Part shown: in pieces, positions 32,290-64,000 of the stretch
How the letters are laid out: every line of letters starts with the position of its first letter
Position numbering within the stretch: the stretch's first letter is position 1
NCBI GenBank assembly: GCA_034096865.1
Contig: JAWQFJ010017484.1
Coordinates: 30,450 to 94,449, forward strand
Reading direction: 5' to 3'
DNA from: Theodoxus fluviatilis
Taxonomy: Eukaryota; Mollusca; Gastropoda; Cycloneritida; Neritidae
DNA length: 64,000 nt
Notes under the pieces: model-generated
What the model was told of the DNA's origin: nothing
The model's input: the letters and a program-made list of their open reading frames with translations, nothing else
Database searches by the model: none
Position numbers and translations under genes: made by a program

Positions 32290-32543
32290 TGATGATAGGG
32301 CAAAATTTCACATCTCGATGTCTTTGACACCGACAAAGCATTGAGGGATAGGTGGAAGGAGCCCAAAGGGCTCATCAGGCTTTAACTGCAAGAATGAGAA
32401 CGGCATATTCAATTTAAAAAACAAGTGCTGCATTCGCACACCGTAGACGAAACATATAATGCGCCTGCACACACCGGTTAGAAGCCCGTAAACACCAAAT
32501 GAATGATAGGGCAAAGGAAAAAGAAAGCAACCTTATTCCTCCA

Positions 32544-33825
<1,282 letters not shown>

Positions 33826-37409: not shown

Positions 37410-37745
37410 AGTGGAGACACGTTGAAGAGGGTGCGGAGTCGTGCGAAGAGGATACGAAGACGTTCGAAGAGAGTGCAGAGACGCATGAAGAAACTACAGA
37501 GACGCGTGAAGAGAGTACAGAGACGTGTGAAGAGAGTACAGAGACGTGTGAAGAGAGTACAGAGACGTGTGAAAGAAAGTACAGAGACAAGTGAAATGAA
37601 TATGGAGAGGTGCGAAGAGAGTACAGAGACGTGTGAAAGAAAGTACAGAGACGTGTGAAGAGAGTACAGAGACGTGTGAAGAGAGTACAGAGACGTGTGA
37701 AGAGAGTACAGAGACGTGTGAAAGAAAGTACAGAGACGTGTGAAA
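37410..37745 (+). repeat. 21-bp minisatellite in tyrosinase intron
   Basis: Units of GAGACGTGTGAAGAGAGTACA, with variants GTGAAAGAAAG and ATGAATATG. Starts within about 20 bp of the splice acceptor of the last exon. Confidence 0.9.
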
Positions 37746-38130
37746 TGAATATGGAGAGAGGTGCAAAATGGATATGGAGACGTGTGAAGAGCGCAGGGAA
37801 GTTTTTGAAGAGTGCTCAGACGCATGAAGAGGATATGGAGACGTGAAGTGTGTACGGAGGATTATAAAGGGAGTATTGAGACGTGTGAAGAGGATATGGA
37901 GACATGTGAAGAGCGTAGGGAAGTTTTTGAAGAGTGCTCAGACGCATGAAGAGGATATGGAGACGTGAAGTGTGTACGGAGGATTATAAAGAGAGCATTG
38001 AGACGTGTGAAGAAGATATGGAGACATGTGAAGAGCGTAGGGAAGTTTTTGAAGAGTGCTCAGACGAATGAAGAGGATATAAAGACATATGAAGAGCGTA
38101 CTGAGGATTTTAAAGAGGGTAAAGAGATAT
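37746..38130 (+). repeat. 122-bp tandem repeat, about 3 units
   Basis: AGGGAAGTTTTTGAAGAG recurs at 37795, 37917 and 38039. Each unit itself contains degenerate GTGAAGAGGATATGGAGAC modules related to the flanking arrays. Confidence 0.9.
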
Positions 38131-38164
38131 ACGAAGAGGTTATGAAAACGTGTGGAGAGGGTAG

Positions 38165-40075: not shown

Positions 40076-40624
40076 CAAATGGAGAGGGTAGAGAGAAGGG
40101 TGAAAAGGTCATGGAGACGGTGTAGAAGACGTGGGAGCTCTTAAAGATGAAGGGCGTAAAGACATGTAAAGAAGTTGTGGAGACGCAGGAAGAGAGAGAT
40201 ATGCAAACGACGTGCACTTATGAGGAGACGTGCTCATGAGAAGTGGGATGAAAACGGTTGAAGAGATTAAGACGAGGCGTGAGAAGTTAGAAAGTGAATG
40301 TTTTCTTTTCAAACATTCTAGTCCAGAAAGTTACCTGCATCTATTTCCTCGAATGCAGTAATCTTTGAATATGTCGAGTGCATCAGAGTATGTGCGTGCA
40401 TGTGGGTGTGCGTTATTATCTAGTTATTGCACACGTTTGCAATGTGATAATACGAATGAATGTAAGAAAATGAATTAGTACACTTCCCCGTGTTTCTTCT
40501 TTTTCCAGAGGACCACTACTGAACATGTCAGTCTTCTACAAATCTGGAATGACTAAAAGTAAGAAATAATAAAACGACAGCACCCAATGGCACTGGCTGC
40601 AGGGCTGACACACCAGACACCCAC

Positions 40625-40761
40625 CAGTCACTTTGAGGATCAACACCATTCTGCCTCTGCTGCTCACGGAAGCGCTCGTAGAGACAATCTACCCAAGTGT
40701 GGAGAGGCCAGAAGATGGGGTCGTAGGCCGCAGTCTCTATGGCGGCCATCAGTCCGCCCAC
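40625..40761 (-). CDS. Tyrosinase, exon with the third CuB histidine
   Basis: 137 nt; acceptor ATTCATTGAAG ends at 40762 and donor GTGGGT starts at 40624 (- strand). It reads VGGLMAAIETAAYDPIFWPL followed by HTWVDCLYERFREQQRQNG and VDPQSDW. DPxFWxxHxxxD is the signature around the third CuB ligand. The His aligning with the second of the usual HH pair (the copper ligand) is kept, while the first is Leu. The exon starts in phase 0, so HAW|VGGLM is restored with exon 42786-42923, and ends in phase 2, matching exon 36715-37393. The adjoining intron on its 5' side (40762-42785) is mostly CTC and ATC microsatellite. Confidence 0.92.
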
Positions 40762-41655: not shown

Positions 41656-42415
41656 CGTTTCCTCGCCCTGCTCCTCCTCTTGCTCCTTCTGCTAATCCCT
41701 CTTCCCGTTCTTCCTCCTGCTCCTCCTGATTCTCGTTCCGCTCCTACTCTAATGTTATTTTGCTTTCCTTGCTCCTTCACCTGCACCTTTTTCTCCTCCT
41801 GCTCTTCCTCCTCCTACTTTTCCTGTTTCTCCTGCTACTGCTCTTTTTCTTCTATTACTGATCTTTTTCTTCTACTACTGATCTTCTTTCTCCTCCTCCT
41901 CCTCCTCCTCCTCCTCCTCCTCCTCCTCCTCCTCCTCCTCCTCCTCCTCCTCCTCCTCCTCCTCCTCCTCCTCCTCCTCCTCCCTCCTCCTCCTCCTCCA
42001 TTTTCCTCCTCCTCCTCTCCTCCTCCTCCTCCTCCTCCTCCTCCTCCTCCTCCTCCTCCTCCTCCTCCTCCTCCTCCTCCTCCTCCTCCTCCTCCTCCTC
42101 CTCCTCCTCCTCCTCCTCCTCCTCCTCCTCCTCCTCCTCCTACTTCTCCTGTTTCTCCTGTTTCTCCTCCTCCTACTTCTCCTGTTTCTCCTGTTTCTCC
42201 TGCTACTGCTCTTTTTCTTCTATTACTGATCTTCTTCTTCTACTACTGATCTTCTTCCTCCTCCTCTTCTTCCTCTTCTTCCTCTTCCTCCTCCTCCTCC
42301 ACCACCTCCTCCTCCTCCTCCTCCTCCTCCTCCTCCTCCTCCTCCTCCTCCTCCTCCTCCTCCTCCTCCTCCTCCTCCTCCTCCTCCTCCTCCTCCTCCT
42401 CCCCCTCGTTGTCAT
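41656..42415 (+). repeat. CTC/CCT trinucleotide tract
   Basis: Long runs of CTC (41888-41990, 42010-42140, 42290-42400) separated by CTTTTTCTTCTATTACTGAT and TTTCTCCTGTTTCTCC spacers. The ~20-base spacer occurs more than once, so the tract has duplicated internally. Confidence 0.95.
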
Positions 42416-42416
42416 T

Positions 42417-42553
42417 AACTCATCATCATCGTCGTCGTCGTCGTCATCGCCGTCGTCGTCGTCATCGTCATCATCATCGTCATCATTATCATCGTCATCC
42501 TCATCGTCATCATTATCATCGTCATCATCATCGCCATCATCATGATCATGATT

Positions 42554-42623
<70 letters not shown>

Positions 42624-42725
42624 CCTTCATCATCATCGTTGTCGTCGTCGTCGTCGTCATTGTCGTCGTCATTGTCGTCGTCGTCATCGTCAGCATCATC
42701 GTCGTCGTCGTTGTCCACTTCGTCG

Positions 42726-42760
<35 letters not shown>

Positions 42761-42770
42761 GTCACGGAAA
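42417..42770 (+). repeat. ATC/GTC trinucleotide tract
   Basis: Alternating ATC and GTC runs, ending about 15 bp from the tyrosinase exon's donor site at 42785. Confidence 0.95.
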
Positions 42771-42785
42771 GATGCCATAACTGAC

Positions 42786-42923
42786 CCAAGCGTGGACGTG
42801 GTTGTGAATTTCCTCTACGTTGGCCGAGGAGTGGCCGTTGGGGAAGGAGATGTCACCCAGCAGCCTCTGCCTCAAGATACTTCTGACGTCATCGGCATGG
42901 ACGGTGCGGCCACGAGATCCCAC
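42786..42923 (-). CDS. Tyrosinase, exon with the first two CuB histidines
   Basis: 138 nt (46 codons), phase 0 at both ends. Acceptor TTCTCACAG is at 42924-42926 and donor GTCAGT begins at 42785. It reads VGSRGRTVHADDVRSILRQR, then LLGDISFPNGHSSANVEEIH and NHVHAW. The HNxxH of IHNHVHAW is the canonical first half of the type-3 copper CuB site, completed by VGG at the start of the next exon. Upstream exons carrying the signal peptide and CuA site are not seen up to 64000. The intron on that side consists almost entirely of the 28-bp satellite plus the LTR element, and begins only about 17 bp from this acceptor. Confidence 0.92.
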
Positions 42924-42941
42924 CTGTGAGAAGAGGAGGTC

Positions 42942-44817
42942 CGTCACTGTGTCTAAAGCTGTGCAAGGCAGTCACTATGTCTACAGTTGTGCAAGGCAGT
43001 CACTGTCTAAAGCTGTGCAAGGCAGACACTATGTCTACAGCAGTGCAAGGCAGTCACTGTGTCTACAGCTGTGCAAGGCAGTCACTGTCTCTAAAGCTAT
43101 GCAAGGCCGTCACCGTGTCTAAAGCTGTGCAAGGCAGTCACTATGCCTAACGCTGTGCAAGGCAGGCACTGTGTCTAAAGCTGTGCAAGGCAGGCACCGT
43201 GTCTAAAGCTGTGCAAGGCAGGCATCGTGTCTACAGCTTTGCAAGGCAGTCACCATGTCTAAAGCTGTGCAAGGCAGTCACTATGTCTAACGCTGTGCAA
43301 GGCAGTCACTGTGTCTACAGCTGACAAAGACAGTCACTGTGTCTACAGCTATGCAAGACAGTCACTATGTCTACAGCTATGCAAGGCAGTCACTATGTCT
43401 ACAGCTATGCAAGGCAGTCACTATGTCTACAGCTGTACACGGCAGTCACTGTGTCTAGAGCTGACAAAGGCAGTCACTATGTCTACAGCTGAAAAAGGCA
43501 GTCACTATGTCTAAAACTGTGCAAGGCAGTCACTGTGTATAAAGCTATGCAAGGTAGTCACTGTGTCTAAAGCTGTGCGAGACAGTCACTGTGTGTAAAG
43601 CTGTGCAAGGAAGTCACTGTGTCTACAGCTGACAAAGGCAGTCACAGTGTCTAAAGCTGTGCAAGGCAGTCATTGTGTCTACAGCTGACAAAGGCAGTCA
43701 CTGTGTCTAAAGCTGTGCGAGACAGTCACTGTGTCTAAAGCTGTGCAAGGCAGTCACTGTGTCTAAAGCTGTGCGAGACAGTCACTGTGTCTAACGCTGT
43801 GCAAGGCAGTCACTGTGTCTAAAGCTGTGCGAGACAGTCACTGTGTCTAAAGCTGTGCAAGGCAGTCACTGTGTCTACAGCTGACAAAGGCAGTCACTGT
43901 GTCTAGAGCTATGCAAGGCAGTCACTGTGTCTAAAGCTGTGCGAGACAGTCACTGTGTCTAAAGCTGTGCAAGGCAGTCACTGTGTCTACAGCTGACAAA
44001 GGCAGTCACTGTGTCTAGAGCTATGCAAGGCAGTCACTGTGTTTAAAGCTGTGCGAGGCTGTCACTGTGTCTAAAGCTATGCAAGGCAGTCACTGTGTTT
44101 AAAGCTGTGCGAGGCTGTCACTGTGTCTAAAGCTATACAAGGCAGTCACTGTGTTTAAAGCTGTGCAAGGCAGTCACTGTCAAAAGCTGTGCAAGGCAGT
44201 CACTGTGTCTAAAGCTATGCAAGGCTGTCACTCTGTCTAAAGCTGTGGAAGGCAGTCACTATGTCTAAAGCTGTGCAAGGCAGTCACTATGTCTAAAGCT
44301 ATGCAAGGCAGTCACCATGTCTAAAACTATGCAAGGCAGTCACTGTGTCTAAAGCTGTGCAAGGCAGTCACTGTGTCTACAGCTTTGCAAGGCAGTCAAA
44401 ATGTCTAACGCTGTGCAAGGCAGTCACTATGTCTAAAGCTGTGCAAGGCAGTCATTATGTCTAAAACTATGCAAGGCAGTCACTGTGTCTAAAGCTGTGC
44501 AAGGCAGTCACTGTGTCTACAGCTTTGCAAGGCAGTCAAAATGTCTAACGCTGTGCAAGGCAGTCACTATGTCTAAAGCTGTGCAAGGCAGTCACTATGT
44601 CTAACGCTGTGCAAGGCAGGCACTGTGTCTAAAGCTGTGCAAGGCAGTCACTATGTCTAACGCTGTGCAAGACAGTCATTATGTCTAAAGCTGTGCAAGG
44701 CAGTCACTGTGTCTAAAGCTGTACAAGGCAGTCACTGTGTCTACAGCTTTGCAAGGCAGTCTATATGTCTAACGCTGTACAAGGCAGTCACTATGTCTAA
44801 AGCTATGCAAGGCAGTC
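42942..44817 (+). repeat. 28-bp satellite, first block
   Basis: About 65 units of 28 bp with consensus parts GTCTAAAGCT, GTGCAAGGCA and GTCACTGT. Variants are ACAGCTGACAAAGG, CTAACGCTG and GAGACAGTC. It is interrupted at 44817 by the LTR retrotransposon and resumes at 50460. Confidence 0.98.
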
Positions 44818-45992
44818 TGTGACGTACTCGTTCTTTAATCAAATGGCTTGTTTAAATGTCTAGGGGAAGAACCGAAGCACGCACCTTCACTCCTCCATTC
44901 AAACGCTAGATGGTAATTGTCTGGCAATGAAGCAGTGGCGAAACCAAAATCAATTCAAAAGAAGTAGTTTAATTTTCAGGATGCATTTACCCGTGAAAGG
45001 TGAATGAGCGACAAGCGCTACAAAAATGCATAGAATGCAAGTAGAAGCAATCAATTCATTTCAACAAACTTGCAGCGAGACATGGAAAAACAAACAATGA
45101 AAAGAAATAGGTCTGCCCGAGCCGAGGTAATTAACTAAGTGTACTTAGCTGACCCTTTTGATGAAATCATGGAGTTGGAGAAGCACGGATTCATACCCCG
45201 CGCCTATCGCCAGCACAGGGGTTGAAATTGGGGGAAGGGGGTCTGAGTGCACCGACATTGCAGCCGGTGACCCGGGAGGAAAATCACCACAGTCGATGAA
45301 AACAGTTGAACCTGGCATTCTTTCGTTCTCTCTCTCTCTCTCTCTCTGGCATCTCTTCGTCTTCTTCGGAGTCGTCGAGGGAACTGGCTCCTTCTTCTTC
45401 TTCTTCGGAGAGGAGTCGGTCTGCTTTCCAACAAGACAGGCCACCACACTTTAGCAAAGCAAGCAAGTAGGCTGGCAGGCAAGCTGGCTGTTCACCATTC
45501 CACCACCCCCTGGCAGAGGGGTTCGCCTCCAGCCGGTTCCGGGCAGGCTGAGGTTTCTCACTAATTTCATTCCGACTTCTATATGGCCACCGCCAAGTAT
45601 AAACCTAACAAGCAGGGCGCCAGCATCTTCACGGACACTGCTTTTGCTGAAAATAAATGTTATGACGCCACGAGCATCCAGCGACACTCTCTTAAATACC
45701 TTCACTGACGTCACCAAGTTCAGCCAGTCCAATCACCACTGTTCATCCCACTCCACTCTGACTGGTCAATTCACAAGTTGAAAGTCACAGGTTGGTCAGC
45801 GTTAAAACGCCAGTGGAGTCCACTACACTGGTAACACTTTCAAGTCATTCACCTACACAGGGGTCAATTCTGTACTGACACCGGCTCAGGGCAATGAAAA
45901 AAACCGCTAAAGCTACGGCTCAGCAGACGCATGGTAAACATTTCTAGTAATACTAATAAACAAAAAGCATGGGAAATCATTGTCTCGCCACA
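44818..45992 (-). repeat. LTR (3' LTR in element orientation)
   Basis: 1175 bp, TGTGACGTACTCG...TCTCGCCACA on the + strand. The only difference I found from the other LTR is G/A in CTTTCGTTCT/CTTTCATTCT (near 45325/49792). The CT run is the same length. ORFs inside are shared by both LTRs and are not genes. Confidence 0.95.
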
Positions 45993-46010
45993 CTTCCCTT
46001 CCACAACGAG
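45993..46010 (-). other. Polypurine tract
   Basis: Read on the - strand, GTTGTGGAAGGGAAG runs directly into the LTR start TGTGGCGAG. This is the expected place and composition for plus-strand priming. Confidence 0.6.
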
Positions 46011-46293
46011 AAAAATGTTATGGAAATGACATTTTTCACACTTCATAATTCAATCAAAAAACAGCCCAAACTCTCCCTAACAACAGGCAGGAACACCTCA
46101 AAACTCCTTCTCACTGGTTTCACATCCTAAGTCCAAGCACATCACACCACACAACCACCTCACCTGACCATCACACTGGCCCACAAAACTCTCACACTCC
46201 ACCCATCACATTCTCTGCACAGCACAATCCAATAAACAGCCAAACACATCAAATCTTTCTCATTCCCACACCCAGTCATTCCTCTCTCTAAAT

Positions 46294-47117
46294 TTAACCT
46301 TTTTTCCTCTTCCTCCAGTCAAACCATTTTCTCTCCCTGTGGCTCGCCTCTCCGAGACTCACACCACCACACGCAACCTCTCCCATCTCCATTCCTTCCT
46401 CTCCCACATCCTCCAACTCCACACCAGTCTTCCCACAAGACTCAATTCCTTCCTCTCCCACATCCTCCAACTCCACACCAGTCTTCCCACAAGACTCAAT
46501 TCCTTCCTCTCCCACATCATCCAACTCCACACCAGTCTTCCCACAAGACTCAATTCCTTCCTCTCCCACATCATCCAACTCCACACCAGTCTTCCCACAA
46601 GACTCAATTCCTTCCTCTCCCACATCCTCCAACTCCTCTCTCTCCTTCCGGGTGGAACACATCAACACCCCACTCTCAGTCTCACTCTCAACTTCCATCT
46701 CTTCCTCTCTCACACACCTGTCCTCTCCCTCCACCTTCACCATTGACACTTCTCTGTCTCCATCCCTGACTCTGTCTCTGTCCCTGACTACGTCTCTGTC
46801 CCTGACTACGTCTCTGTCCTTGACTACGTCTCTGTCCCTGACTACGTCTCTGTCCCTGACTACGTCTCTGTCCTTGACCCCGTCTCCGACTCTGACCCTG
46901 TCTCCGACTCTGACCCTGTCCTCGACTCTGACCCTGTCCTCGACTCTGACCCTGTCCTCGACTCTGACCCTGTCTCCGACTCTGACCCTGTCCTCGACTC
47001 TGACCCTGTCCTCGACTATGACTCTGTCAATTCCCACTCTCTCCAACGAACGACAAGCAACCATCTCACACTGACTCTCCTCAGCAACAACCTCCTCACA
47101 CCGACTCTCCTCAGCAA
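46294..47117 (-). CDS. gag-like ORF, C-terminal part (after the LINE)
   Basis: The open frame continues the upstream part's composition and ends at 46294. It is strongly acidic and repetitive: an 18-bp unit giving RVxVEDRV/RDRDVV repeats (about 46755-47020) and four 54-bp units giving DVGEEGIESCGKTG (about 46390-46620). No CCHC knuckle or pol motif. It is separated from the N-terminal part by the nested LINE. The annotated 281-codon start lies in LINE tail sequence. Confidence 0.6.
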
Positions 47118-48463
47118 CAGTACAGTACACACAGTACACAGTAATTTATTGCGCCAAGTGACATCATTTAAAAAACGAGCACGAGGAAAACTAAGTGATG
47201 AAGGCTAAAAAAGAAACAAAACAAAAAGCCAAACACACGCATCGCTTACACACCCTAACACGCCGTTTATGCAAAAAACATGGACATTTCCCGATGTACC
47301 TCACTCACGCAGCTGCACACAGACAAGAGATAAGACTGCACCTGAAACCAAAGGATTAACTGGTAAATGGGGCAATATACAATGAACAATTAAAGTTACT
47401 ATTTAAGAACTGTTGACAAAAGAGGAACAAACTAAGATGATACACCCACCCACCCACCCCCCTTTTAAGTGACAATAAATAATACATATGAACAGAGACA
47501 AGACCACTAAGACGTACCCCCCCACCCCCCCACCCCCATCCCACCCCCCGTCACCACACAAAAGAATACAATAGAACAATACAAAAACAACCCTGCGCAA
47601 CTACAAGAAGACCAACCCTTCCCCACCCCCACCCCCTCCCCCACCCCTCCCCCCACCCCCAACCACACTCAGAAGCAGTCCATATAACCCAGAGGAAGCA
47701 CAAAAGAGAAAGTGGCACTGTCATAGATGTGGAGAAGTGTGTGCGCACCGCCGACAGGATCAGCGGCGGCAAAGCTGCCTGGGGAGGTTCTGGACAGCGT
47801 TGAGCTCCGTCACCGCCGTGGGAAAGAACGAGTTCTGAAAACGGCATGTGCGCGTTTTGAGGGACCTGAAACGACGGCCAGAGGGAAGGAGCTGGAAGAG
47901 GGAGCAAGCAGGGTGGGAGGGGTCCGCCACAATCTTACGGGACTTGCGCACTATGCGCTGGGCGTAGATAGAGGCTAGGGAGGGCAGATCACGGCCAATG
48001 ATCCTGCCAGCAGCGTGCACGACACGCTCCAGCTTGTCTTTCTGCTGTTGAGTGGCCCCTCCGAACCACACACAGATGGAGAAGGTAAGGGAGTTTACAT
48101 TGGAGAGGAAGATGCAAGGGAGAGGAGGACGGTTAGAGCGTTGCCTGAAGCGTACCAGTAATCCAGCACGCTTGCCTCTCCTGCGTCGAGGTCCACGCCG
48201 GCGACGCGCAGATGAAAAAGCACGTGCGCCCGCAGTTGAATCGCCGTGAGTTTTTGAATCGCCGTGTGTTTTCCGAGCCTCATCAGGCCAAACCAAGAGG
48301 TTAGGTACGTACTTGCAATCTAAGTTGTCACGGATGCGAAGAAGATCATCTCTGCTATATACATGCAAACTTTTAGCTCTCTCGATCACCATACAAACGA
48401 CGTACAGACCAAACAAAAGAGCCATCATCTTGTCGCCCTGACCAACCGGCGCCATCTTACCTG
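47118..48463 (-). mobile_element. Internally deleted LINE nested in the gag-like ORF
   Basis: On the - strand the first part resembles the start of a LINE endonuclease ORF (KRAGLLVRFRQRSNRPPLPC, IFLSNVNSL). It switches at once to the extreme C-terminus of the RT ORF (TFSICVWFGGATQQQKDKLE, then RVVHAAGRIIGRDLPSLASI, then SHPACSLFQLLPSGRR). Endonuclease and RT cores are absent, so this is a deletion derivative keeping both ends. It finishes with AATAAA and a short TACTGTG-type tandem tail (47119-47150), as in CR1/L2-like LINEs. GTTGCT flanks both sides as a possible target duplication. Confidence 0.8.
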
Positions 48464-49035
48464 GTAGCAACAACAACCTCCTCAGCAACAACAACCTCCT
48501 CAGCAACAACAACCTCCTCAGCAACAACAGCCTCCTCACAAGCAACAACAACCTCCTCACACCGACTCGCACCGCCAATGCCAGACAACACAACTCTCTC
48601 CCCAATGCTGGACATTCCACAACCTTCAACAGCATCACTCCGCACCAGCAAAACCTCCGCACCGACACCACGCAACACAGTGTCACACCGCCCTCGAGGA
48701 GACACACACGGAACGAAACATTCCTCAACTCTCTCTCTCTCCTGCCTCCTCTCTCTCTCTAACTTCCGCTCTGCCTCCCATTTCTCCCTTCTCTTCACAG
48801 TCTCCTTCCGCATCGCTTCTCTCCATTCCCTGTCTCTTCTCTCTAAACTTGCGTACTTCTCCCTCAGTTTCCTGTCTAACTCCTCCCCTCTGAATCTGCA
48901 GAACCTCCATTGCAACTCATATTCAGTAGCCCCCTCGCCTGCACTCAACCCAAACTTCTCAAACAACAACTCCAATCCCGCCTTATCTAATGAATAAATC
49001 AAGGCAATGGTTGGAAATTCTGCTTCTTCCCCCAT
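48464..49035 (-). CDS. gag-like ORF, N-terminal part
   Basis: ATG at 49035, about 250 bp inside the right LTR. It begins MGEEAEFPTIALIYSLDKAG, then LELLFEKFGL, then a long Glu/Arg coiled-coil-like region (REKYASLERRDREWREAMRK), then Val/Glu/Ala repeats (EEVVVAEE) where the LINE enters. The helical, SAP-like start and basic-acidic coiled coil suit a retrotransposon capsid-type protein; the assignment is by position and composition. It is broken by the LINE, so the full product is not made from this copy. Confidence 0.65.
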
Positions 49036-49261
49036 TGTAAAGATTTGCTAGCTTCACACACTACTGAACTCAGCAAAAACTTCAAACAGCAGTAAGCCAA
49101 CACAAGGTCACACAGTGCAGCAAGGCATGAGAGCAACAAGGTGAATCAAAACAAAAATGGCAGTTCAGGTCATATCACTCTCCCGCTCAAGGCACAGACA
49201 CTCAAAATTTAACTGTAAAACATGAATTCAGATTTACTTTACTTTTGCATTTCGTTCAAAT

Positions 49262-49284
49262 TATCCCAAGACGAAGACCCCAAA
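49262..49284 (-). other. Primer-binding-site-like sequence
   Basis: Reading the - strand out of the LTR: TTTGGGGTCTTCGTCTTGGG then ATAATTTGAAC. TGG two bases from the LTR, GTC, GGGAT and GAAC are spaced as in sequences complementary to a tRNA 3' end, but I cannot name the tRNA. Confidence 0.45.
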
Positions 49285-50459
49285 TGTGACGTACTCGTTC
49301 TTTAATCAAATGGCTTGTTTAAATGTCTAGGGGAAGAACCGAAGCACGCACCTTCACTCCTCCATTCAAACGCTAGATGGTAATTGTCTGGCAATGAAGC
49401 AGTGGCGAAACCAAAATCAATTCAAAAGAAGTAGTTTAATTTTCAGGATGCATTTACCCGTGAAAGGTGAATGAGCGACAAGCGCTACAAAAATGCATAG
49501 AATGCAAGTAGAAGCAATCAATTCATTTCAACAAACTTGCAGCGAGACATGGAAAAACAAACAATGAAAAGAAATAGGTCTGCCCGAGCCGAGGTAATTA
49601 ACTAAGTGTACTTAGCTGACCCTTTTGATGAAATCATGGAGTTGGAGAAGCACGGATTCATACCCCGCGCCTATCGCCAGCACAGGGGTTGAAATTGGGG
49701 GAAGGGGGTCTGAGTGCACCGACATTGCAGCCGGTGACCCGGGAGGAAAATCACCACAGTCGATGAAAACAGTTGAACCTGGCATTCTTTCATTCTCTCT
49801 CTCTCTCTCTCTCTGGCATCTCTTCGTCTTCTTCGGAGTCGTCGAGGGAACTGGCTCCTTCTTCTTCTTCTTCGGAGAGGAGTCGGTCTGCTTTCCAACA
49901 AGACAGGCCACCACACTTTAGCAAAGCAAGCAAGTAGGCTGGCAGGCAAGCTGGCTGTTCACCATTCCACCACCCCCTGGCAGAGGGGTTCGCCTCCAGC
50001 CGGTTCCGGGCAGGCTGAGGTTTCTCACTAATTTCATTCCGACTTCTATATGGCCACCGCCAAGTATAAACCTAACAAGCAGGGCGCCAGCATCTTCACG
50101 GACACTGCTTTTGCTGAAAATAAATGTTATGACGCCACGAGCATCCAGCGACACTCTCTTAAATACCTTCACTGACGTCACCAAGTTCAGCCAGTCCAAT
50201 CACCACTGTTCATCCCACTCCACTCTGACTGGTCAATTCACAAGTTGAAAGTCACAGGTTGGTCAGCGTTAAAACGCCAGTGGAGTCCACTACACTGGTA
50301 ACACTTTCAAGTCATTCACCTACACAGGGGTCAATTCTGTACTGACACCGGCTCAGGGCAATGAAAAAAACCGCTAAAGCTACGGCTCAGCAGACGCATG
50401 GTAAACATTTCTAGTAATACTAATAAACAAAAAGCATGGGAAATCATTGTCTCGCCACA
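49285..50459 (-). repeat. LTR (5' LTR in element orientation)
   Basis: Same length as 44818-45992 and near identical. Ends CTCGCCACA, followed by the target duplicate CAGTC. Confidence 0.95.
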
Positions 50460-53400
50460 CAGTCATTATGTCTAAAGCTATGCAAGGCAGTCACTGTGTC
50501 TAAAGCTGTGGAAGGCAGTCACCATGTCTAAAGCTGTGCAAGGCAGTCACTAAGTCTAAAGCTGTGCAAGGCAGTCACTATGTCTAACGCTGTGCAAGGC
50601 AGTCATTATGTCTAAAGCTGTGTAAGGCAGTCACTGTGTCTAAAGCTGTACAAGGCAGTCACTGTGTCTACAGCTTTGCAAGGCAGTCAATATGTCTAAC
50701 GCTGTGCAAAGCAGTCACTATGTCTAAAGCTGTGCAAGGCAGTCACTATGTCTAACGCTGTGCAAGGCAGTCACTATGTCTAAAGCTGTGTAAGGCAGTC
50801 ACTGTGTCTAAAGCTGTGCAAGGCAGTCACTATGTCTAACGCTGTGCAAGGCAGTCACTATGTCTAAAGCTGTGCAAAGCAGTCACTATTTCTAAAGCTG
50901 TGCAAGGCAGTCACTGTGTCTACAGTTGTACAAGGCAGTCACTGTGTCTAAAGCAGTGCAAAGCAGTCACAGTGTCTAACGGTGTGCAAGGCGGTCATTG
51001 TGTCTACAGCTGTACAAGGCAGTCACTGTGTCTAAATCAATGCAAGGCAGTCACAGTGTCTAAAGCTGTGCAAGACGGCCACTATGTCTAAAGCTGTGCA
51101 ACGCAGTCACTGTGTCTGAAACTGTGCAAGGCAGTCACAGTGTCTAAAGCTGTGCAAAACGGCCACTATGTCTAAAGCTGTGCAACGCAGTCACTGTGTC
51201 TGAAACTGTGCAAGGCAGTCACTATGTCTAAAGCTGTGCAAGGCAGTCACTGTGTCTAAAGCTGTGCAAGGCAGTCACTATGTCTAAAGCTATGCAATGC
51301 AGTCACTATGTCTAAAGCTGTGCAATACAGTCACTGTCTAAAGCTGTGCAAGGCAGACACTGTGTCTAAAGCTGTGCAAGGCAGTCACTGTGTCTACAGC
51401 TGTACAAAGCAGTCACTGTGTCTGAAGCAGTGCAAGGCAGACACTGTGTCTAAAGCTGTGCAAGGCAGTCACTGTGTCTACAGCTGTACAAAGCAGTCAC
51501 TGTGTCTAAAGCAGTGCAAGGCAGTCACTGTGTCTAAAGCAGTGAAAAGCAGCCACATTGTCTAAGGCAATGCAAGACGGCCACTATGTCTAAAGCTGTG
51601 CAAGGCAGTCACTGTGTCTAACGGTGTGCAAGGTAGTCACTGTGTCTAAAGCTGTGGAAGGCAGTCACTGTGTCTATAGCTATGCAAGGCAGTCATTGTG
51701 TCTAAAGCTATGCAAGGCAGTCACTATGTCTAAAGCTGTGCAAGGAAGACACTGTGTCTAAAGCTGTGCAAGGCAGTCACTGTGTCTAAAGCTGTGCAAG
51801 GCAGTCACTGTGTCTAACGTTGTCAAGGCAGTCACTATGTCTACAGCTGTGCAAGGCAGTCACTGTGTCTAAAGCAGTGCAAGGCAGTCACAGTGTCTAA
51901 GGCTGTGCAAGATGGCCACTGTGTCTAAAGCTGTGCAAGGCAGTCACTGTGTCTAACGGTGTGCAAGGTAGTCACTGTTTCTACAGCTGTACAAGGCAGT
52001 CACTGTGTCTAAAGCAGTGCAAGGCAGTCACAGTGTCTAAGGCTGTTTAAGACGGCCACTGTGTCTAATGCTGTGCAAGACGGCCACTGTGTCTAACGGT
52101 GTGCAAGGAGTCACTGGGTCTAACGGTGTGCAAGGCAGTCACTGTGTCTAAGGCTGTGCAAGGCAGTTATCATGTCTAAAGCTGTGCAAGGCAGTCACTA
52201 TGTCTAAAGTTGTGCAAGGCAGTCACTATGTCTAAAGCTGTGCAAGGCAGTCACAGTGTCTAAAGCTGTGTAAGGCAGTCACTGTGTCCAAAGCTGTGCA
52301 AGGCAGTCACCATGTCTAAAGCTGTGCAAGGCAGTCACTATGTCTAAAGCTGTGCAAGGAAGTCACTGTGTCTAAAGCTGTGCAAGGCAGTAACTATGTC
52401 TAAAGCTGTGCAAGGCAGTCACTGTGTCTAAAGCTGTGCAAGGCAGTCACTGTGTCTAAAGCTGTACCACGCAGTCACTATGTCTAAAGCTGTGCAAGGC
52501 CGTCACTGTGTCTAAAACTGTGCAAGGCAGTTACTGTGTCTAAAGTTGTGCAAGGCAGTCACTATGTCTAAAGCTGTGCAAGACGGCCACTGTGTCTAAA
52601 GCTGTGCAAGACAGTCACTATGTCTAAAGCTGTGCAAGACGGCCACTGTGTCTAAAGCTGTGCAAGACAGTCACTATGTCTAAAGCTGTGCAAGGCAGTC
52701 ACATTGTCTAAAGGTGTGCACGACGGCCATTGTGTCTACAGTTGCACAAGGCAGTCACTATGTCTAAAGCTGTGCAAGGCAGTCACTGTGTCTAAACCTG
52801 TGCAAGGCAGTCACTTTGTCTACAACTGTAAAAGGCAGTCACTGTGTCTACAGCTGTGCAAGACAGTCATTGTGTCTACAGCTGTGCAAGGCTGTCACTG
52901 TGTCTAAAGCTATGCAAGGCAGTCACTATGTCTAAAGCTGTGCAAGGCAGTCACTATGTCTAAAGCTGTGCAAGACATTCACTATGTCTAAATCTGTGCA
53001 AGGCAGTCACTGTGTCTAAAGCTGTGCAAGACATTCACTATGTCTAAATCTGTGCAAGGCAGTCACCATGTCTAACGCTGTGCAAGGCAGTCACTATGTC
53101 TAAAGCTGTGCAAGGCAGTCACTATGTCTAAAGCTGTGCAAGGCAGTCACTATGTCTAAAGCTGTACACGGCAGTCACTGTGTCTACAGCTGCACAAGGC
53201 AGTCACTGTGTCTACAGCTGTGCAAGGCTGTCACTATGTCTAAAGCTGTGCAAGACATTCACTATGTCTAAATCTGTGCAAGGCAGTCACCATGTCTAAC
53301 GCTGTGCAAGGCAGTCACTATGTCTAAAGCTGTGCAAGGCAGTCACTATGTCTAAAGCTGTGCAAGACATTCACTATGTCTAAATCTGTGCAAGGCAGTC

Positions 53401-56400
53401 ACCATGTCTAACGCTGTGCAAGGCAGTCACTATGTCTAAAGCTGTGCAAGGCAGTCACTATGTCTAAAGCTGTGCAAGACATTCACTATGTCTAAATCTG
53501 TGCAAGGCAGTCACCATGTCTAACGCTGTGCAAGGCAGTCACTATGTCTAAAGCTGTGCAAGGCAGTCACTATGTCTAAAGCTGTGCAAGACATTCACTA
53601 TGTCTAAATCTGTGCAAGGCAGTCACCATGTCTAACGCTGTGCAAGGCAGTCACTATGTCTAAAGCTGTGCAAGGCAGTCACTAAGTCTAAAGCTGTGCA
53701 AGACATTCACTATGTCTAAATCTGTGCAAGGCAGTCACCATGTCTAACGCTGTGCAAGGCAGTCACTATGTCTAACGCTGTGCAAGGCAGTCACTATGTC
53801 TACAGCTGTGCAAGGCTGTCACTGTGTCTACAGCTGTGCAAGGCTGTCACTATGTCTAAAGCTGTGCAAGGCAGTCACTATGTCTAAAGCTGTGCAAGAC
53901 ATTCACTATGTCTAAATCTGTGCAAGGCAGTCACCATGTCTAACGCTGTGCAAGGCAGTCACTATGTCTAAAGCTGTGCAAGGCAGTCACTATGTCTAAA
54001 GCTGTGCAAGGCAGTCACTGTGTCTACAGCTGCACAAGGCAGTCACTGTGTCTACAGCTGTACAAGGCAGTCACTGTGTCTACAGCTGACAAAGGCAGTC
54101 ACTGTGTCTACAGCTGTGCAAGACGGCTACTGTGTCTACAGCTGTGCAAGGCAGTCAATGTGTCTACAGCTTTTCAAGGCAGTCACTTAGTCTACAGCTG
54201 TTCAATGCAGACACTGTGTCTACAGCTGTGCAAGGCAGTCACTATGTCTAAAGCTGTGCAAGGCAGTCACTATGTCTAAAGCTGTGCAAGGCAGTCAATG
54301 TGTCTACAGCTTTTCAAGGCAGTCACTTAGTCTACAGCTGTTCAATGCAGACACTGTGTCTACAGCTGTGCAAGGCAGTCACTGTGTCTACAGCTGTGCA
54401 AGAAAGTCACTATATCTGAAGCTGTGCGAGGCAGTCACTGTGTCTGCAGCTGTACAAGGCAGTCACTAAGTCTAAAGCAGTGCAAGGCAGTCACTATGTC
54501 TAAAGCTGTGCAAGTTAGTCTTTGAGTCTACAGCTGTTCAAGGCAGCCACTATTACTAAAGCTGTGCAAGGTAGTCACTGTGCCTACAGCTGTGCAAGGC
54601 AGTCACTATTACTAAAGCTGTGCAAGGCAGTCACTGTGTCTAAAGCTGTGCAAGACAGTCACAGTGCCTAAAGCTGTGCGAGGGAGTCACGGTGTCTAAA
54701 GCTGTGCAAGACAGCCACTGCGTCTACAGCTGTGCAAGGCAGTCACTATGTCTAACGGTGTGCAAGGCAGTCACTGTGTCTAACGGTGTGCAAGGCAGTC
54801 ACTGTGTCTACAGCTGTGCAAGGCAGTCACTGTCTCTAAAGCTGTGCGAGGGAGTCACTGTGTCTACAGCTGTGCAAGGCAGTCACTATGTCTAACGGTG
54901 TGCAAGGCAGTCACTGTGTCTAAAGCTGTGCAAGACAGCCACTGCGTCTACAGCTGTGCAAGACAGTCACTATGTCTAACGGTGTGCAAGGCAGTCACTG
55001 TGTCTAAAGCTGTGCAAGACAGCCACTGTGTCTAAAGCTGTGCAAGGCAGTCACTGTGTCTACAGCTGTGCAAGACAGCCACTGCGTCTACAGCTGTGCA
55101 AGACAGTCACTATGTCTAACGGTGTACGAGGCAGTCACTGTGTCTAACGGTGTGCAAGGCAGTCACTATGTCTAACGGTGTGCGAGGCAGTCACTGTGTC
55201 TAACGGTGTGCAAGGTAGTCACTGTGTCTACAGCTGTGCAAGGCAGTCACCATGTCTAACGGTGTGCAAGGCAGTCACTGTGTCTAAAGCTGGGCAAGGC
55301 AGTCACTGTGTCTAAAGCTGTGCAAGGCAGTCACTGTGTCTAAAGCTGTGCAAGGCAGTCATTGTGTCTAAAGCTGTGCAAGGCAGTCACTGTGTCTAAA
55401 GCTGTGCAAGGCAGTCATTGTGTCTAAAGCTGTGCAAGGCAGTCATTGGGTCTAAAGCTATGCAAGGCAGTCACTGTGTCTAAAGCTGTGCAAGGCAGTC
55501 ATTGTGTCTAAAGCTGTGCAAGGCAGTCATTGTGTCTAAAGATGTGCAAGGCAGTCACTATGTCTAGCGGTGTGCAAGGCAGTCACTGTGTCTAAAGCTG
55601 TGCAAGGCAGTCACTGTGTCTAAACCTGTGCAAGGCAGTCACTGTGTCTACAGCTATGCAAGGTAGTCACTATGTCTCAAGCTATGCAAGGCAGTCACTG
55701 TGTCTAAAGCTGTGCAAGGCAGTCACTGTGTCTAAAGCTGTACAAGGCAGTCACTATGTCTAAAGCTATGCAAGGCAGTCACTGTGTCTACAGCTGTGCA
55801 AGGCAGTCACTATGTCTACAGCTGTGGAAGGCAGTCACAGTGTCTAAGTCTGTGCAAGACGGCCACTATGTCTAACGGTGTGCAAAGCAGTCATTATGTC
55901 TAAAGCTGTGCAAGGCAGTCACTATGTCTAACGGTGTGCAAGGCAGTCACTGTGTCTAAAGCTGTGGAAGGCAGTCATTGTGTCTAAAGCTGTGCAAGGC
56001 AGTCACTGTGTCTAAAGCTGTGCAAGACAGTCACTGTGTCTAAAGCTGTGCAAGGCAGTCACAGTGTCTAAGTCTGTGCAAGACGGCCACTATGTCTAAA
56101 GCTGTGCCAGGTAGTCACTGTGTCTAACGGTGTGCAAGGCAGTCACTCTGTCTACAGCTGTGCAAGGCAGTCAATGTGTCTACAGCTATGCAAGGCAGTC
56201 AATATGTCTAAAGCTGTGCGAGGCAGTCACTGTGTCTAAAGCTTTGCAAGGCAGTCACTGTATCTAAAGCTGTGCAAGGCAGTCACCATGTCTAAAGCTG
56301 TGCAAGGCAGTCACTGTGTCTAAAGCTGTGCAAGGCAGTCACTGTGTCTACAGCTTTGCAAGGCAGTCACTATGTCTAAAGCTGTGCAAGGCAGTGAATG

Positions 56401-59400
56401 TGTCTAAAGCTATGCGAGGCAGTCAATATGTCTAACGCTGTGCAAGGCAGTCAATATGTCTAACGCTGTGCAAGGCAGGCACTGTGTCTAAAGCTGTGCA
56501 AGGCAGTCACTATGTCTAAAGCTATGCAAGGCAGTCACTATGTCTAAAGCTGTGCAAGGCAGTCACTGTGTCTACAGATTTGCAAGGCAGTCACTATGTC
56601 TAAAGCTATGCAAGGCAGTCACTATGTCTAACGCTGTGCAAGGCAGTCACTGTGTCTACAGCTTTGCAAGGCAGTCACTATGTCTAAAGCTATGCAAGGC
56701 AGTCACTATGTCTAAAGCTGTGCAAGGCAGTCACTGTGTCTAAAGCTGTGCAAGGCAGTCACTATGTCTAAAGCTGTGCAAGGCAGTCACTATGTCTAAA
56801 GCTGTGCAAGGCAGTCACTATGTCTAAAGCTGTGCAAGGCAGTCACTATGTCTAAAGCTATGCAAGGCAGTCACTATGTCTAAAGCTATGCAAGGCAGTC
56901 ATTGTGTCTAAAGCTATGCGAGGCAGTCAATATGTCTAACGCTGTGCAAGGCAGTCACTATCTCTAAAGCTGTGCAAGGCAGTCACTATGTCCAAAGCTG
57001 TGCAAGGCAGTCACTGTGTCTAACGCTGTGCAAGGCAGTCACTGTGTCTACAGCTTTGCAAGGCAGTCACTATGTCTAAAGCTATGCAAGGCAGTCACTA
57101 TGTCTAAAGCTGTGCAAGGCAGTCACTATGTCTAAAGCTATGCAAGGCAGTCACTATGTCTAAAGCTGTGCAAGGCAGTTACTTTGTCTAACGGTGTGCA
57201 AGGCAGTCACTGTGTCTAAAGCAGTGCAAGGCAGTCACACATGTCTAAGGCTGTGCAAGACGGCCACTATGTCTAAAGCTGTGCAAGGCAGTCATTGTTT
57301 CTACAGCTGTACATGGCAGTCACTGTGTCTAAAGCAGTGCAAGGCAGTCATTGTGTCTACAGCTGTGCAAGACGGCCACTATGTCTAAAGCAGTGCAAGG
57401 CAGTCACAGTGTCTAAGGCTGTGCTAGACGACCATTATGTCTAAAGCTGTGCAAGGCAGTCACTGTGTTTAACGGTGTGCAAGGCAGTTAATGTGTCTAA
57501 AGCTGTGCAAGGCAGGCACAGTGTCTAAAGCTGTGCAAGACGGCCACTATGTCTAAAGCTGTGCAAGGCAGTCACTGTGTCTAATGGTGTGCAAGGCAGT
57601 CACTGTGTCTAAAGCTGAGGAAGGCAGTCACTGTGTCTACAGCTATGCAAGGCAGTCAATATGTCTAAAGCTGTGCGAGCAGTCACTATGTCTAACGCTG
57701 TGCAAGGCAGTCACTCTGTCTAACGCTGTGCAAGGCAGTCACTGTGTCTAAAATTGTGCAAGGCACTCACTATGTCTAAAGATATGCAAGGCAGTCACTA
57801 TGTCTAAAGCTGTGCAAGGCAGTCACTGTCTAAAGCTGTGCAAGGCAGCCACTGTGTCTAAAGCAGTGCAAGGCAGTCACAGTGTCTAAATCTGTGCAAG
57901 ACGGCCACTATGTCTAAAGCAGTGCAAGGATGTCACAGTGTCTAAAGCTGTGCAAGACGGCCACTATGTCTAAAGCTGTGCAAGGCTGTCACTGTGTCTA
58001 ATGGTGTGCAAGGCAGTCACTGTGTCTAAAGCTATGCAAGGCAGTCACTGTGTCTACAGCTATGCAAGGCACTCAATATGTCTAAAGCTGTGCAAGGCAG
58101 TCGCTGTGTCTAAGGTTGTGCAAGACGGCCACTATGTCTAAAGCTGTGCAAGGCAGTCACTCTGCCTAACAGTGTGCAAGGCAGTCACTGTGTCTACAGC
58201 TGTACAAGGCAGTCACTGTGTCTAAAGCAGTGCAAGGCAGTCACAGTGTCTAAGGCAATGCAAGACGGCCACTATGTCTAAAGCTGCGCAAGGCAGTCAC
58301 TGTGTCTAATGGTGTGCTAAGCAGTCACTGTGTCTAAAGATGTGCAAGGCAGTCACTGTGTCTATAGCTATGCAAGGCAGTCACTATGTCTAACGCTGTT
58401 TAAGGTAGTCACTATGTCTAAACCTGTGCAAGGCAGTAACTATGTCTAAAATTATGCAGGGCCGTCACTGTGTCTAAAGCTATCCAAGGCAGTCACTGTC
58501 TAAAGCTGTGCAAGGCAGTCACTGTGTCTAAAGCTGTGCAAGGCAGTAACTGTGTCTAACGGTGTGCAAGGCAGTCACTGTGTCTACAGCTGTACAAGGC
58601 AATCACTGTGTCTAAAGCAGTGCAAGGCAGTCACAGTGTCTAAGGCTGTGCAAGACGGCCATTGTGTCTAAAGCTGTGCAAGGCAGTCACTGTGCCTAAC
58701 GGTGTGCAAGGCAGTTACTGTGTCTGCAGCTGTGCAAGGCAGTCACTGTGTCTAAAGCAGTGCAAAGCAGTCACTGTGTCTAAGGCTGTGCAAGACGGCC
58801 ACTGTGTCTAAAGCTATGCAAGGCAGTAACTGTGTCTAACGGTGTGCAAGTTGTCTACAGCTGTGCAAGGCAGTCACTTTGTCTAAAGTTGTGCAAGGCA
58901 GTCACCATGTCTAGAGCTGTGCAAGGCAGTCACTATGTCTAAAGCTATGCAAGGAAGTCACTGTCTCTAAAGCTGTGCAAGGCAGTCACTGTGTCTAAAG
59001 CTGTGCAAGGCAGTCACTGTTTTTAAAGCTGTGCAAGGCAGCCACCATGTCTAAAGCTGTACAAGGCAGTCACTGTCTTTAAAGCTCTGCAATGCAGTCA
59101 CTATGTCTAAAGCTGTGCAAGACAGCCACTGTGTCTACAGCTGTGCAAGGCAGTCACCATGTCTAACCCTGTGCCAGTCAGTCACTATGTCTAAAGCTGT
59201 GAAAGGCAGTCACTATGTCTAAATCTGTGCATAGCAGTCACTATGTCTAAAGCTGAGCAAGGCAGTCACTATGTCTAAATCTGTGCAAGGCAATCACTGT
59301 GTCTAACGCTGTGCAAGGCAGTCACTATGTCTCACGCTGTGCAAGGCAGTCACTGTGTCTAAAGCTGTGCAAGGCAGTCACTATGTCTAACGCTGTGCAA

Positions 59401-62400
59401 GGCAGTCACTATGTCTAAAGCTGTGCAAGGCAATCACTATGTCTAAAGCTATGCAAGGCAGTAACTATGTCTAAAGCTGTGCAAGGCAATCACTATGTCT
59501 AAAGCTATGCAAGGCAGTAACTATGTCTAAAGCTGTGCAAGGCAATCACTATGTCTAAAGCTATGCAAGGCAGTAACTATGTCTAAAGCTGTGCAAGGCA
59601 ATCACTATGTCTAAAGCTATGCAAGGCAGTAACTATGTCTAAAGCTGTGCAAGGCAGTCACCATGTCTAAAGCTGTGCAAGGCAGTAACTATGTCTAAAG
59701 CTGTGCAAGGCAGTCACTGTGTCTACAGATGTGCAAGGCAGTCACTATGTCCAAAGCTATGCAAGGCAGTCACTGTGTCTAACACTGTGCAAGGCAGTCA
59801 CTGTGTCTAAATCTGTGCAAGGCAGTCACTGTGTCTGAAGCTGTGCAAAGCAGTCACTGTGTCTAAAGCTATGCAAGGCAGTCACCATGTCTAAAGCTGT
59901 GCGAGGCAGTCAATGTGTCTACAGCTGTGCAAGGCAGTCATTGTGTCTTCAGCTGTGCAAGGCAGTCACAGTGTATAAAGCTGCGCAGGGCAGTCAATGT
60001 GTCTACAGCTGTGCAAGGCAGTCAATGTGTCTACAGCTGTGCAAGGCAGTCACTGAGCCTACAGCTGTTCAAGGCAGTCACTATGTCTAAAGCTGTGCAA
60101 GGCAGTCACTGTGTCTACAGCTGTGCAAGGCAGTCACTGAGTCTACAGCTGTTCAAGGCAGTCACTATGTCTAAAGCTGTGCAAGGCTGTGTCTACAGCT
60201 GTGCAAGGCAGTCACTGTGTCTACAGCTGTGCAAGGCAGTCACTGTGTCTGAAGCTGTGCAAGGCAGTCACTGTCGCTACAGCTGTGCAAGGCAGTCACT
60301 ATGTCTGAAGCTGTGCAAGGCAGTCACTGTGTCTACAGCTGTGCAATGCAGTCACTATGTCTAAAGCTGTGCAAGACAGTCACAGTGTCTAAAGCTTTGC
60401 GAGGGAGTCACAGTGTCTAAAGCTGTGCAAGACAGCCACTGTGTCTACAGCTGTGCAAGGCAGACATCATGTCTAAAGCACTGCAAGGCAGTCACCATGT
60501 CTAAAGCTATGCAAGGCAGTCACTGTGTCTAGAGCTGTGCAAGGCAGTCACCGTGTCTACAGCTGTACAAGGTAGTCACTGTGTCTTAAGCTGTGCAAGG
60601 CAGTCATTGTGTCTACAGCTGTACAAGGCAGTCTCTGTGTCTAAAGCTGTACAAGGCTGTCACTGTGTCTAAAGCTATTCAAGGCAGTCACTGTGTCTAA
60701 AGCTGTACATGGCAGTCACCAAGTCTACAGCTGTACATGGCAGTCACCAAGTCTAAAGCTGTGCAAGGCAGTCATTGTGTCTAAAGCTGTGCAAGGCAGT
60801 CACCGTGTCTACAGCTGTACATGGCAGTCACCAAGTCTAAAGCTGTGCAAGGCAGTCATTGTGTCTAAAGCTGTACAAGGCAGTCACTGTGTCTAAAGCT
60901 GTGCAACGCAGTCACTGTGTCTAAAGCTGTGCTAGGCAGTCACTGTGTCTAAAGCTGTGCAACGCAGTCACTGTGTCTAAAGCTGTGCTAGGCAGTCACT
61001 GTGTCTAAAAATGTGTAAGGCAGTCACTGTGTCTAAAGCTGTGCAACGCAGTCACTGTGTCTAAAGCTGTGCTAGGCAGTCACTGTGTCTAAAACTGTGT
61101 AAGGCAGTCACTGTGTCTAAAGCTGTGCAAGGCAGTCACTGTGTCTAATGCTGTGCAAGGCAGTCACTGTGTCTAAAGCTGTGCAAGGCAGTCACTGTGT
61201 CTAAAGCTGTACAAGGCAGTCACTGTGTCTAAAGCTGTACAAGGCAGTCACAGTGTCTAAAGCTGTGCAAGGCAGTCACCATGTCTCAAGCTGTGCAAGG
61301 CAGTCACTGTGTCTAAAGCTATACAAGGCAGTCACTATGTCTAAAGCTTTACAAGGCAGTCTCTGTGTCTAAAGCTGTGCAAGACAGTTACTATGTCTAA
61401 AGCTTTACAAGGCAGTCTCTGTGTCTAATGCTGTGCAAGGCAGTCACTGTGTCTAAAGCTGTGCAAGGCAGTCTCTGTGTCTAATGCTGTGCAAGGCAGT
61501 CACTGTGTCTAAAGCTATACAAGGCAGTCACTGTGTCTAAAGCTGTGCAAGGCAGTCACCATGTCTCAAGCTGTGCAAGGCAGTCACTGTGTCTAAAGCT
61601 ATACAAGGCAGTCACTATGTCTAAAGCTTTACAAGGCAGTCTCTGTTTCTAAAGCTGTGCAAGGCAGTCTCTGTGTCTAATGCTGTGCAAGGCAGTCACT
61701 GTGTCTAAAGCTATGCAAGGCAGTCACTGTGTCTAAAGCTGTGCAAGGCAGTCACCATGTCTCAAGCTGTGCAAGGCAGTCACTGTGTCTAAAGCTATAC
61801 AAGGCAGTCACTATGTCTAAAGCTTTACAAGGCAGTCTCTGTGTCTAAAGCTGTGCAAGGCAGTCACTATGTCTAAAGCTGTACAAGGCAGTCACTGTGT
61901 CTAACGCTATGCTAAGCAGTCACGCTGTCTAAAGCTGTGCAAGGCAGTCACTATGTCTAGAACTGTGCAAGGCAGTCACTGTGTTTAACGCTGTGCAAGG
62001 CAGTCACCGTGTCTAAAGCTATGCAAGGCAGTCACTGTGTCTAAAGCTGTGCAAGGCAGTCACTGTGTCTAAAGCTGTGCAAGGCATGTCACCGTATCTA
62101 CAGCTGTGCAAGTCAGTCACTGTGTCTAAAGCTGTGCAAGGCAATCACTATGTCTAAAGCTGTGCAAGGCAGTCACTGTGTCTACAGCTGACAAAGGCAG
62201 TCACTTTGTCTACAGCTGACAAAAGCAGTCACTATGTCTAAAGCTGTGCTAGGCAGTCACTGTGTCTAAAACTGTGTAAGGCAGTCACTGTGTCTAAAGC
62301 TGTGCAAGGCAGTCACTGTGTCTAATGCTGTGTAAGGCAGTCACTGTGTCTAAAGCTGTGCAAGGCAGTCACTGTGTCTAAAGCTGTACAAGGCAGTCAC

Positions 62401-64000
62401 TGTGTCTAAAGCTGTACAAGGCAGTCACAGTGTCTAAAGCTGTGCAAGGCAGTCACCATGTCTCAAGCTGTGCAAGGCAGTCACTGTGTCTAAAGCTATA
62501 CAAGGCAGTCACTATGTCTAAAGCTTTACAAGGCAGTCTCTGTGTCTAAAGCTGTGCAAGACAGTCACTATGACTAAAGCTTTACAAGGCAGTCTCTGTG
62601 TCTAATGCTGTGCAAGGCAGTCACTGTGTCTAAAGCTGTGCAAGGCAGTCTCTGTGTCTAATGCTGTGCAAGGCAGTCACTGTGTCTAAAGCTATACAAG
62701 GCAGTCACTGTGTCTAAAGCTGTGCAAGGCAGTCACCATGTCTCAAGCTGTGCAAGGCAGTCACTGTGTCTAAAGCTATACAAGGCAGTCACTATGTCTA
62801 AAGCTTTACAAGGCAGTCTCTGTTTCTAAAGCTGTGCAAGGCAGTCTCTGTGTCTAATGCTGTGCAAGGCAGTCACTGTGTCTAAAGCTATGCAAGGCAG
62901 TCACTGTGTCTAAAGCTGTGCAAGGCAGTCACCATGTCTCAAGCTGTGCAAGGCAGTCACTGTGTCTAAAGCTATACAAGGCAGTCACTATGTCTAAAGC
63001 TTTACAAGGCAGTCTCTGTGTCTAAAGCTGTGCAAGGCAGTCACTATGTCTAAAGCTGAACAAGGCAGTCACTGTGTCTAACGCTATGCTAAGCAGTCAC
63101 GCTGTCTAAAGCTGTGCAAGGCAGTCACTATGTCTAGAACTGTGCAAGGCAGTCACTGTGTTTAACGCTGTGCAAGGCAGTCACCGTGTCTAAAGCTATG
63201 CAAGGCAGTCACTGTGTCTAAAGCTGTGCAAGGCAGTCACTGTGTCTAAAGCTGTGCAAGGCATGTCACCGTATCTACAGCTGTGCAAGTCAGTCACTGT
63301 GTCTAAAGCTGTGCAAGGCAATCACTATGTCTAAAGCTGTGCAAGGCAGTCACTGTGTCTACAGCTGACAAAGGCAGTCACTTTGTCTACAGCTGACAAA
63401 AGCAGTCACTATGTCTAAAGCTGTGCAAGGCAGTCACTGTTTCTACAGCTGACAAAGGCAGTCACTATGTCTACAGCTGACAAAAGCAGTCACTGTGTCT
63501 AAAGCTGTGCAAGGCAGTCAATGTGTCTACAGCTGACAAAGGCAGTCACTGTGTCTAAAGCTGTGCAAGGCAGTCACCGTGTCTACAGCTGTGCAAGGCA
63601 GTCACTATGTCTAAAGCTGTACAAGGCAGTCACTATGTCTAAAGCTGTGCAAGGCAGTCACCTTGTCTAAAGCTGTGCAAGGCAGTCACCGTGTCTAAAG
63701 CTGTACAAGGCAGTCATTATGTCTACAGCTGTACAAGGCAGTCACCGTGTCTAAAGCTGTGCAAGGCAATCACCGTGTCTAAAGCTGTGCAAGGCAGTCA
63801 CTACGTCTAAAGCTGTGCAAGGCAGTCACTGTGTCTAAAGCTGTACGAGGCAGTTACTGTGTCTAACGCTGTGCAAGGCAGTCACTGTGTCTAAAGCTGT
63901 GCAAATCAGTCACTGTGTTTAAAGCTGTGCAAGGCAGTCACCGTGTCTACAGCTGTACAAGGCAGTCATTGTGTCTAAAGCTGTGCAAGGCAGTCACCAT
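50460..64000 (+). repeat. 28-bp satellite, second block, runs off the window
   Basis: Over 480 further units of the same 28-bp repeat with no other insertion seen. Variants are organised in higher-order blocks. These are a 112-bp (4-unit) repeat near 53240-53760 marked by AAGACATTCAC, a 56-bp (2-unit) repeat near 59425-59640 marked by GCAATCAC/GCAGTAAC, and a 1177-bp (about 42-unit) duplication, 61063-62239 against 62240-63416. Short ORFs with VQGSHCVYSC-type repeats are artefacts. The array has no visible end on the right. Confidence 0.98.

Follow-up and report, generated by a model that had tools for sequence, protein, structure and literature searches.

Tyrosinase exons and their repeat-rich surroundings

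The DNA analyzed here, a stretch of 64,000 nt that we call the window and that spans positions 30450-94449 of contig C10164, carries on its minus strand three exons of a tyrosinase gene, probably that of a mollusc. The most upstream of them (42786..42923, 138 nt, phase 0-0), recognized by its match to PF00264 and by paralogue alignment, encodes the first two CuB histidines within an HNHVH motif. The second (40625..40761, 137 nt), which also matches PF00264 and joins the first in phase, provides the third CuB histidine (YDPIFWPLHTWVD), and the terminal exon (36715..37393), recognized by an in-phase join and its acceptor, encodes a cysteine cluster, a Gly-rich repeat of the GGAGGFPG type and the stop codon. 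Joined together, the three exons have GT-AG borders and fitting phases and encode 317 residues followed by a stop. The PF00264 match (E 2.9e-13, 51.1 bits against a cut-off of 22.6) covers profile positions 166-213 of 214, that is, the CuB end only; the query peptide ran past exon 40625-40761 into the intron, and this part lies outside the match. This CuB match, together with the in-phase joins, bears out an earlier note on this DNA, made from the letters alone, that had called exon 42786-42923 a tyrosinase exon.

The H-N-x-V-H motif and the third histidine align with those of PDB chains and of paralogues from the same genome, and we take these aligned CuB histidines to be copper ligands; one paralogue (on contig C4609) has another residue in place of the first histidine. 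Hemocyanins and tyrosinases are the best matches of this peptide among solved structures. When protein databases were searched with the 123- and 317-residue window peptides, 11 and 74 candidates, respectively, were obtained, none of them at E ≤0.001, and a tblastn search for further copies of the exons, in the window and the rest of the contig, recovered the three exons and a match at chance level (E 0.12). A C-terminal cysteine cluster is mentioned in passages on mollusc tyrosinases (PMC3334994). The Gly-rich tail is itself encoded by a 30/81-bp tandem repeat (36722-36985), so that a minisatellite lies within the coding sequence as well.

Tandem repeats cover 77%, 47%, and 83% of the visible introns, the first of which is incomplete, and arrays approach three splice sites within about 15, 21, and 21 bp (tandem arrays and duplications are given here without strand). 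The intron next to the first one holds (CTC)n and (TCA)n tracts (41890..42764) that stop 21 bp short of the exon 42786-42923 donor, and the third holds 21/42/61/122-bp and 41-bp arrays (37415..40095), the start of which is about 21 bp away from the terminal-exon acceptor; the 41-bp array (38133-40095) has 48 copies with 94% matches. The left half of the window carries more minisatellites, with units of 30, 87, 91, and 78 bp, at 10155-11980, 17134-18028, 25731-26989, and 30745-31280, respectively. Overall, tandem repeats make up 44.8% of the window (41.9% for periods of at least 7), compared with 8.8% (0.7% for periods of at least 7) in the 11,000 readable bases of a control of five stretches (20,000 bases, 9,000 of them masked), a sample too small to gauge rarity. 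The window's leftmost 42.9 kb has a share of 29%, and the next three 10-kb stretches leftward have 16%, 7%, and 6%. Other contigs also carry minisatellites, some longer than 1 kb; on C18389, for instance, a 27-bp repeat extends over 3.2 kb. The tyrosinase gene thus lies amid dense repeats, and long minisatellites also occur in other parts of the genome. The window also contains a 350-residue frame (32460-33512) with a weak match to zf-RVT (17.4 bits, cut-off 27.5), which is perhaps a retrotransposon remnant.

A locus-specific 28-bp minisatellite

Upstream of exon 42786-42923 lies a head-to-tail array of a 28-bp unit, within the 10-100-bp range of minisatellites, in two blocks. Tandem Repeats Finder reports 67.1 copies in the block proximal to the exon (42943-44817) and 484.2 copies in the distal block (50460-63997), with 86% matches and with a consensus, GTCACTGTGTCTAAAGCTGTGCAAGGCA, that is common to both blocks up to rotation. 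Counting partial units, the proximal block (67 copies) spans 42939..44817 and the distal block (484 copies) spans 50460..64000, up to the contig end. Together the blocks amount to about 551 copies and about 15.4 kb; a separate parse gave 555 units, partial ones included. Mean identity of the units to the consensus is 0.917 and 0.919 in the two blocks, and the 538 complete, gap-free units fall into 275 distinct sequences. The 28-mer accounts for about 73% of the 21,077 bases between the exon and position 64000, and a retrotransposon for about 27%.

Much of what the earlier note had said about this array holds. It had placed the start about 17 bp from the acceptor, and the distance is 15 nt if measured to a partial unit (42939) or 19 nt if measured to the first whole unit (42943), which is a perfect copy of the consensus. 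The repeat is indeed still running at 64000, but contig C10164 (94,449 bases) physically stops at this position. Given that the contig ends inside the array, the assembly broke there, and the array measures at least 15.4 kb, unless its length has been inflated by the assembly. The proposed length of about 15 kb of one repeat is likewise correct, but the array does not form the single block that had been described, as it is split by the retrotransposon.

This insertion (44818..50459, 5,642 bp, placed on the minus strand by eye) is an LTR retrotransposon, bounded by long terminal repeats of 1,175 bp each (44818-45992 and 49285-50459) with TG...CA ends (TGTGACG...GCCACA) and flanked by a 5-bp target duplication, CAGTC. 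The two LTRs differ at 1 of 1,175 sites, and when the element and one CAGTC are removed, the empty site continues in the 28-bp register, indicating a young insertion into a pre-existing array. A purine-rich tract beside one LTR, judged by eye, suggests that the sense strand of the element is the minus strand, as for the tyrosinase gene. A 196-aa minus-strand frame within it (48457-49047), the single frame scanned, had no Pfam match at 0.1. An internal repeat of the element is split by a foreign-looking piece of 1.35 kb (47120-48465), whose minus-strand frame, by eye, resembles what we take to be the end of a non-LTR reverse transcriptase.

We searched the assembly (965 Mb in 19,668 contigs, masked stretches excluded) for the unit with up to two mismatches. 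The results show 407 forward matches and none in reverse, and all 407 lie in the window, where the proximal block has 45 of them and the distal block 362. The unit spelled backwards gave no match in the genome, which excludes chance. At this threshold the unit is absent from every other readable contig, and the far side of the gap is therefore not recognizable by it. The repeat thus does not have the many copies at several loci of a genome-wide satellite DNA; it is a locus-specific minisatellite, present in one orientation. In addition, a 13-base piece of the unit is absent from the first 1,500 bases of C10163 and C10165, the start of C10163 being masked.

A looser DNA search (8 of 9 candidates scored, the array's own locus missing among the matches listed) pointed to five other contigs at 67-70% identity. 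In four of these, at one locus each, the match is to other repeats with units of 27, 13, 10, and 24 bp, none of which reaches 22 of 28 bases; the 10-bp repeat of C4052, when tripled, agrees with the unit at 17 of 28. On C6461 (1513-1737 of the stretch examined), about eight copies of another 28-bp repeat share 21 of 28 bases with the unit, whereas the best agreement among 500 shuffled units was 16 of 28. The C6461 repeat may be distant kin of the array unit or a look-alike, and its likeness above that of the shuffles means that the unit may not have arisen at the tyrosinase locus alone.

Within the distal block, unit identity is flat, between 0.854 and 0.867, over lags of 1 to 24 units, which rules out a regular higher-order structure across the block. 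Local duplications are found in the array: 343 nt are repeated at 112 bp (four units), shorter stretches at 56 and 532 bp, and 1,177 bp in a recent tandem duplication (61058..63426) whose copies agree at 1,182 or more of 1,192 sites. The 112-bp and 1,177-bp duplications are of the kind left by unequal exchange or replication slippage, and the latter, being close to the contig end, could also be an assembly fault. This duplication, the end of the contig within the array, and the presence of one tyrosinase paralogue on three contigs, implying that the assembly is fragmented or contains both haplotypes, raise the possibility that the assembly misrepresents the length of the array or some of its layout, the real array being much shorter or much longer. 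We regard this as possible but doubtful, given that the 275 sequences among 538 units anchor the array by variants instead of leaving a collapsed consensus, and that the retrotransposon has clean junctions and a target duplication. Such an artefact would be compatible with the array being either an intron or a flank of the gene.

The splice acceptor and the CuA half of the gene

The three exons cover the CuB end of the tyrosinase domain. A family search of the same genome, with 10 candidates scored, gave at least four matches on four contigs, the window exons not being among the matches listed. One paralogue is found on C4185 and again on C4186 and C12728, these copies having small flank differences and representing haplotigs or recent duplicates; a second lies on C4609. 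The window tyrosinase is 38% and 27% identical to the C4185 and C4609 paralogues, respectively. In both, the start of the window exon falls in the middle of one open frame, which in C4185 extends 57 residues (60 alignment columns) further upstream, indicating that exon 42786-42923 is not a natural gene start and that coding sequence is to be expected to the right of the array. Since the open frame of the paralogue continues upstream, the array is, as far as can be judged from sequence, most likely an intron. Both paralogues lack an intron here, as well as at the following junction (HAW|VGG), and the intron is therefore not vouched for by conservation.

The CuA exon was not found in the contig, which ends in the array, or in the genome searches, which listed at least four tyrosinase matches; when the middle exon of the paralogue was used as a protein query, the three candidates yielded only that paralogue, on three contigs. 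If the gene is whole, its CuA exons have to be located past the end of the contig. The failure to reach a CuA exon in the contig or genome searches, as well as the lack of an intron at the array position in two paralogues, would also fit a truncated tyrosinase copy, of which the three exons are the 3′ part and the array the 5′ flank. We consider such a copy unlikely: the exons are all open, their phases are consistent, the stop follows a complete tail, the acceptor is good and the CuB ligands are kept, whereas a dead gene would be expected to have lost some of these features.

Between the exon and the array, the acceptor is reduced to a unique core of 15 nt on the minus strand (42924..42938), consisting of a pyrimidine tract and CAG. 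The earlier note had predicted that hundreds of decoy AGs surround it. Between the exon and the end of the contig there are 1,985 AGs on the minus strand, of which 1,606 are YAGs, and the satellite accounts for 1,502 of the AGs (1,437 YAGs). We scored these sites with a rough acceptor matrix, its weights taken from general knowledge: the true acceptor scores 5.87 and the best satellite AG 3.28, none of the 1,501 scored reaching the true site, while 3 of 482 AGs in the retrotransposon score at least as high as the true acceptor with the same rough matrix. If only pyrimidine content is considered, two satellite YAGs equal the true site (0.80). The prediction is therefore correct as to the number of decoys but not as to their strength, no satellite AG matching the true site on this crude scale.

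The branch-like word nearest to the acceptor is a TGAC at −23 to −20 (its A at −21), located in the exon-adjacent unit and separated from the acceptor by sequence free of AG. It matches TNAY and falls short of the full YTNAY. The distal block has 396 TGACs in about 484 units. We infer that the repeat can reach so close to the acceptor since its unit happens to bring a branch-like word and is poor in good pyrimidine tracts.

Based on these data, we consider it probable that a locus-specific minisatellite has expanded within a tyrosinase intron and is bounded there by a minimal acceptor. In this model, selection for the 15-nt pyrimidine tract and CAG would set the edge of the array, and the exon-adjacent unit would supply the branch point (TGAC, A at −21), allowing splicing to work in an intron that is nearly all repeat. 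The donor and the CuA exons would lie beyond the contig end, giving an intron longer than 21 kb, and the repeat itself would require no role. A stronger version, in which the repeat has become part of the splice site, appears improbable to us: the exon-adjacent unit would be the sole usable branch point, the array would expand freely since added units mostly carry TGAC, the pyrimidine tract would fix its edge, and its length, which would differ among individuals, would be free to impose a varying delay on a pigment or shell gene. A function of the array itself, for instance in delaying transcription as proposed for Drosophila Y-linked satellite introns, would fit the analogy with kl-3 and kl-5 (passages of PMC6508621) and the folding of the repeat RNA, weaker in one 280-nt stretch than in 200 of 200 shuffles (z +3.52), but is very unlikely given that 15-20 kb is small beside megabase introns, that nothing in these data points to constraint on the unit beyond tandem turnover, and that the neighboring introns are filled by other tandem arrays.

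Significance and comparison with known systems

A literature search, judged by titles, found no description of this tyrosinase intron, which is not proof of absence. We view the instance as new and its kind as already known, a striking yet explainable growth of a repeat in a gene. Provided that the array is spliced out as an intron, it offers a clear natural test of a minimal acceptor, with 15 nt of unique sequence beside at least 15 kb of repeat. Moreover, genes with such introns break in assemblies and may be lost or truncated in annotation, and the family affected here, tyrosinase, is studied for the evolution of mollusc shell and pigment.

Locus-specific minisatellites have units of 10-100 bp, many variant copies at one locus, and local duplications. 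The tyrosinase array shares these traits and differs in its length and in lying in a presumed intron, where it abuts an acceptor. Satellite-filled gigantic introns are described for the Drosophila Y-linked genes kl-3 and kl-5 (PMC6508621; PMC11207136). As in these genes, a protein-coding gene here would have introns made mostly of tandem repeat that have to be transcribed and spliced out. In these descriptions, kl-3 and kl-5 contain megabases of short simple satellites, such as (AATAT)n, making up more than 99% of the gene, are expressed in spermatocytes only and have known RNA-binding factors, whereas the tyrosinase array, known here from DNA alone, extends so far over tens of kilobases at most and consists of close copies of a 28-bp unit at one locus. 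Closer in protein family, gastropod hemocyanin genes are described as having repetitive, incompletely assembled introns (passages of PMC7931591). Hemocyanins and tyrosinases are related copper proteins, and where those hemocyanin passages describe no repeat unit, the tyrosinase case gives one, of 28 bp.
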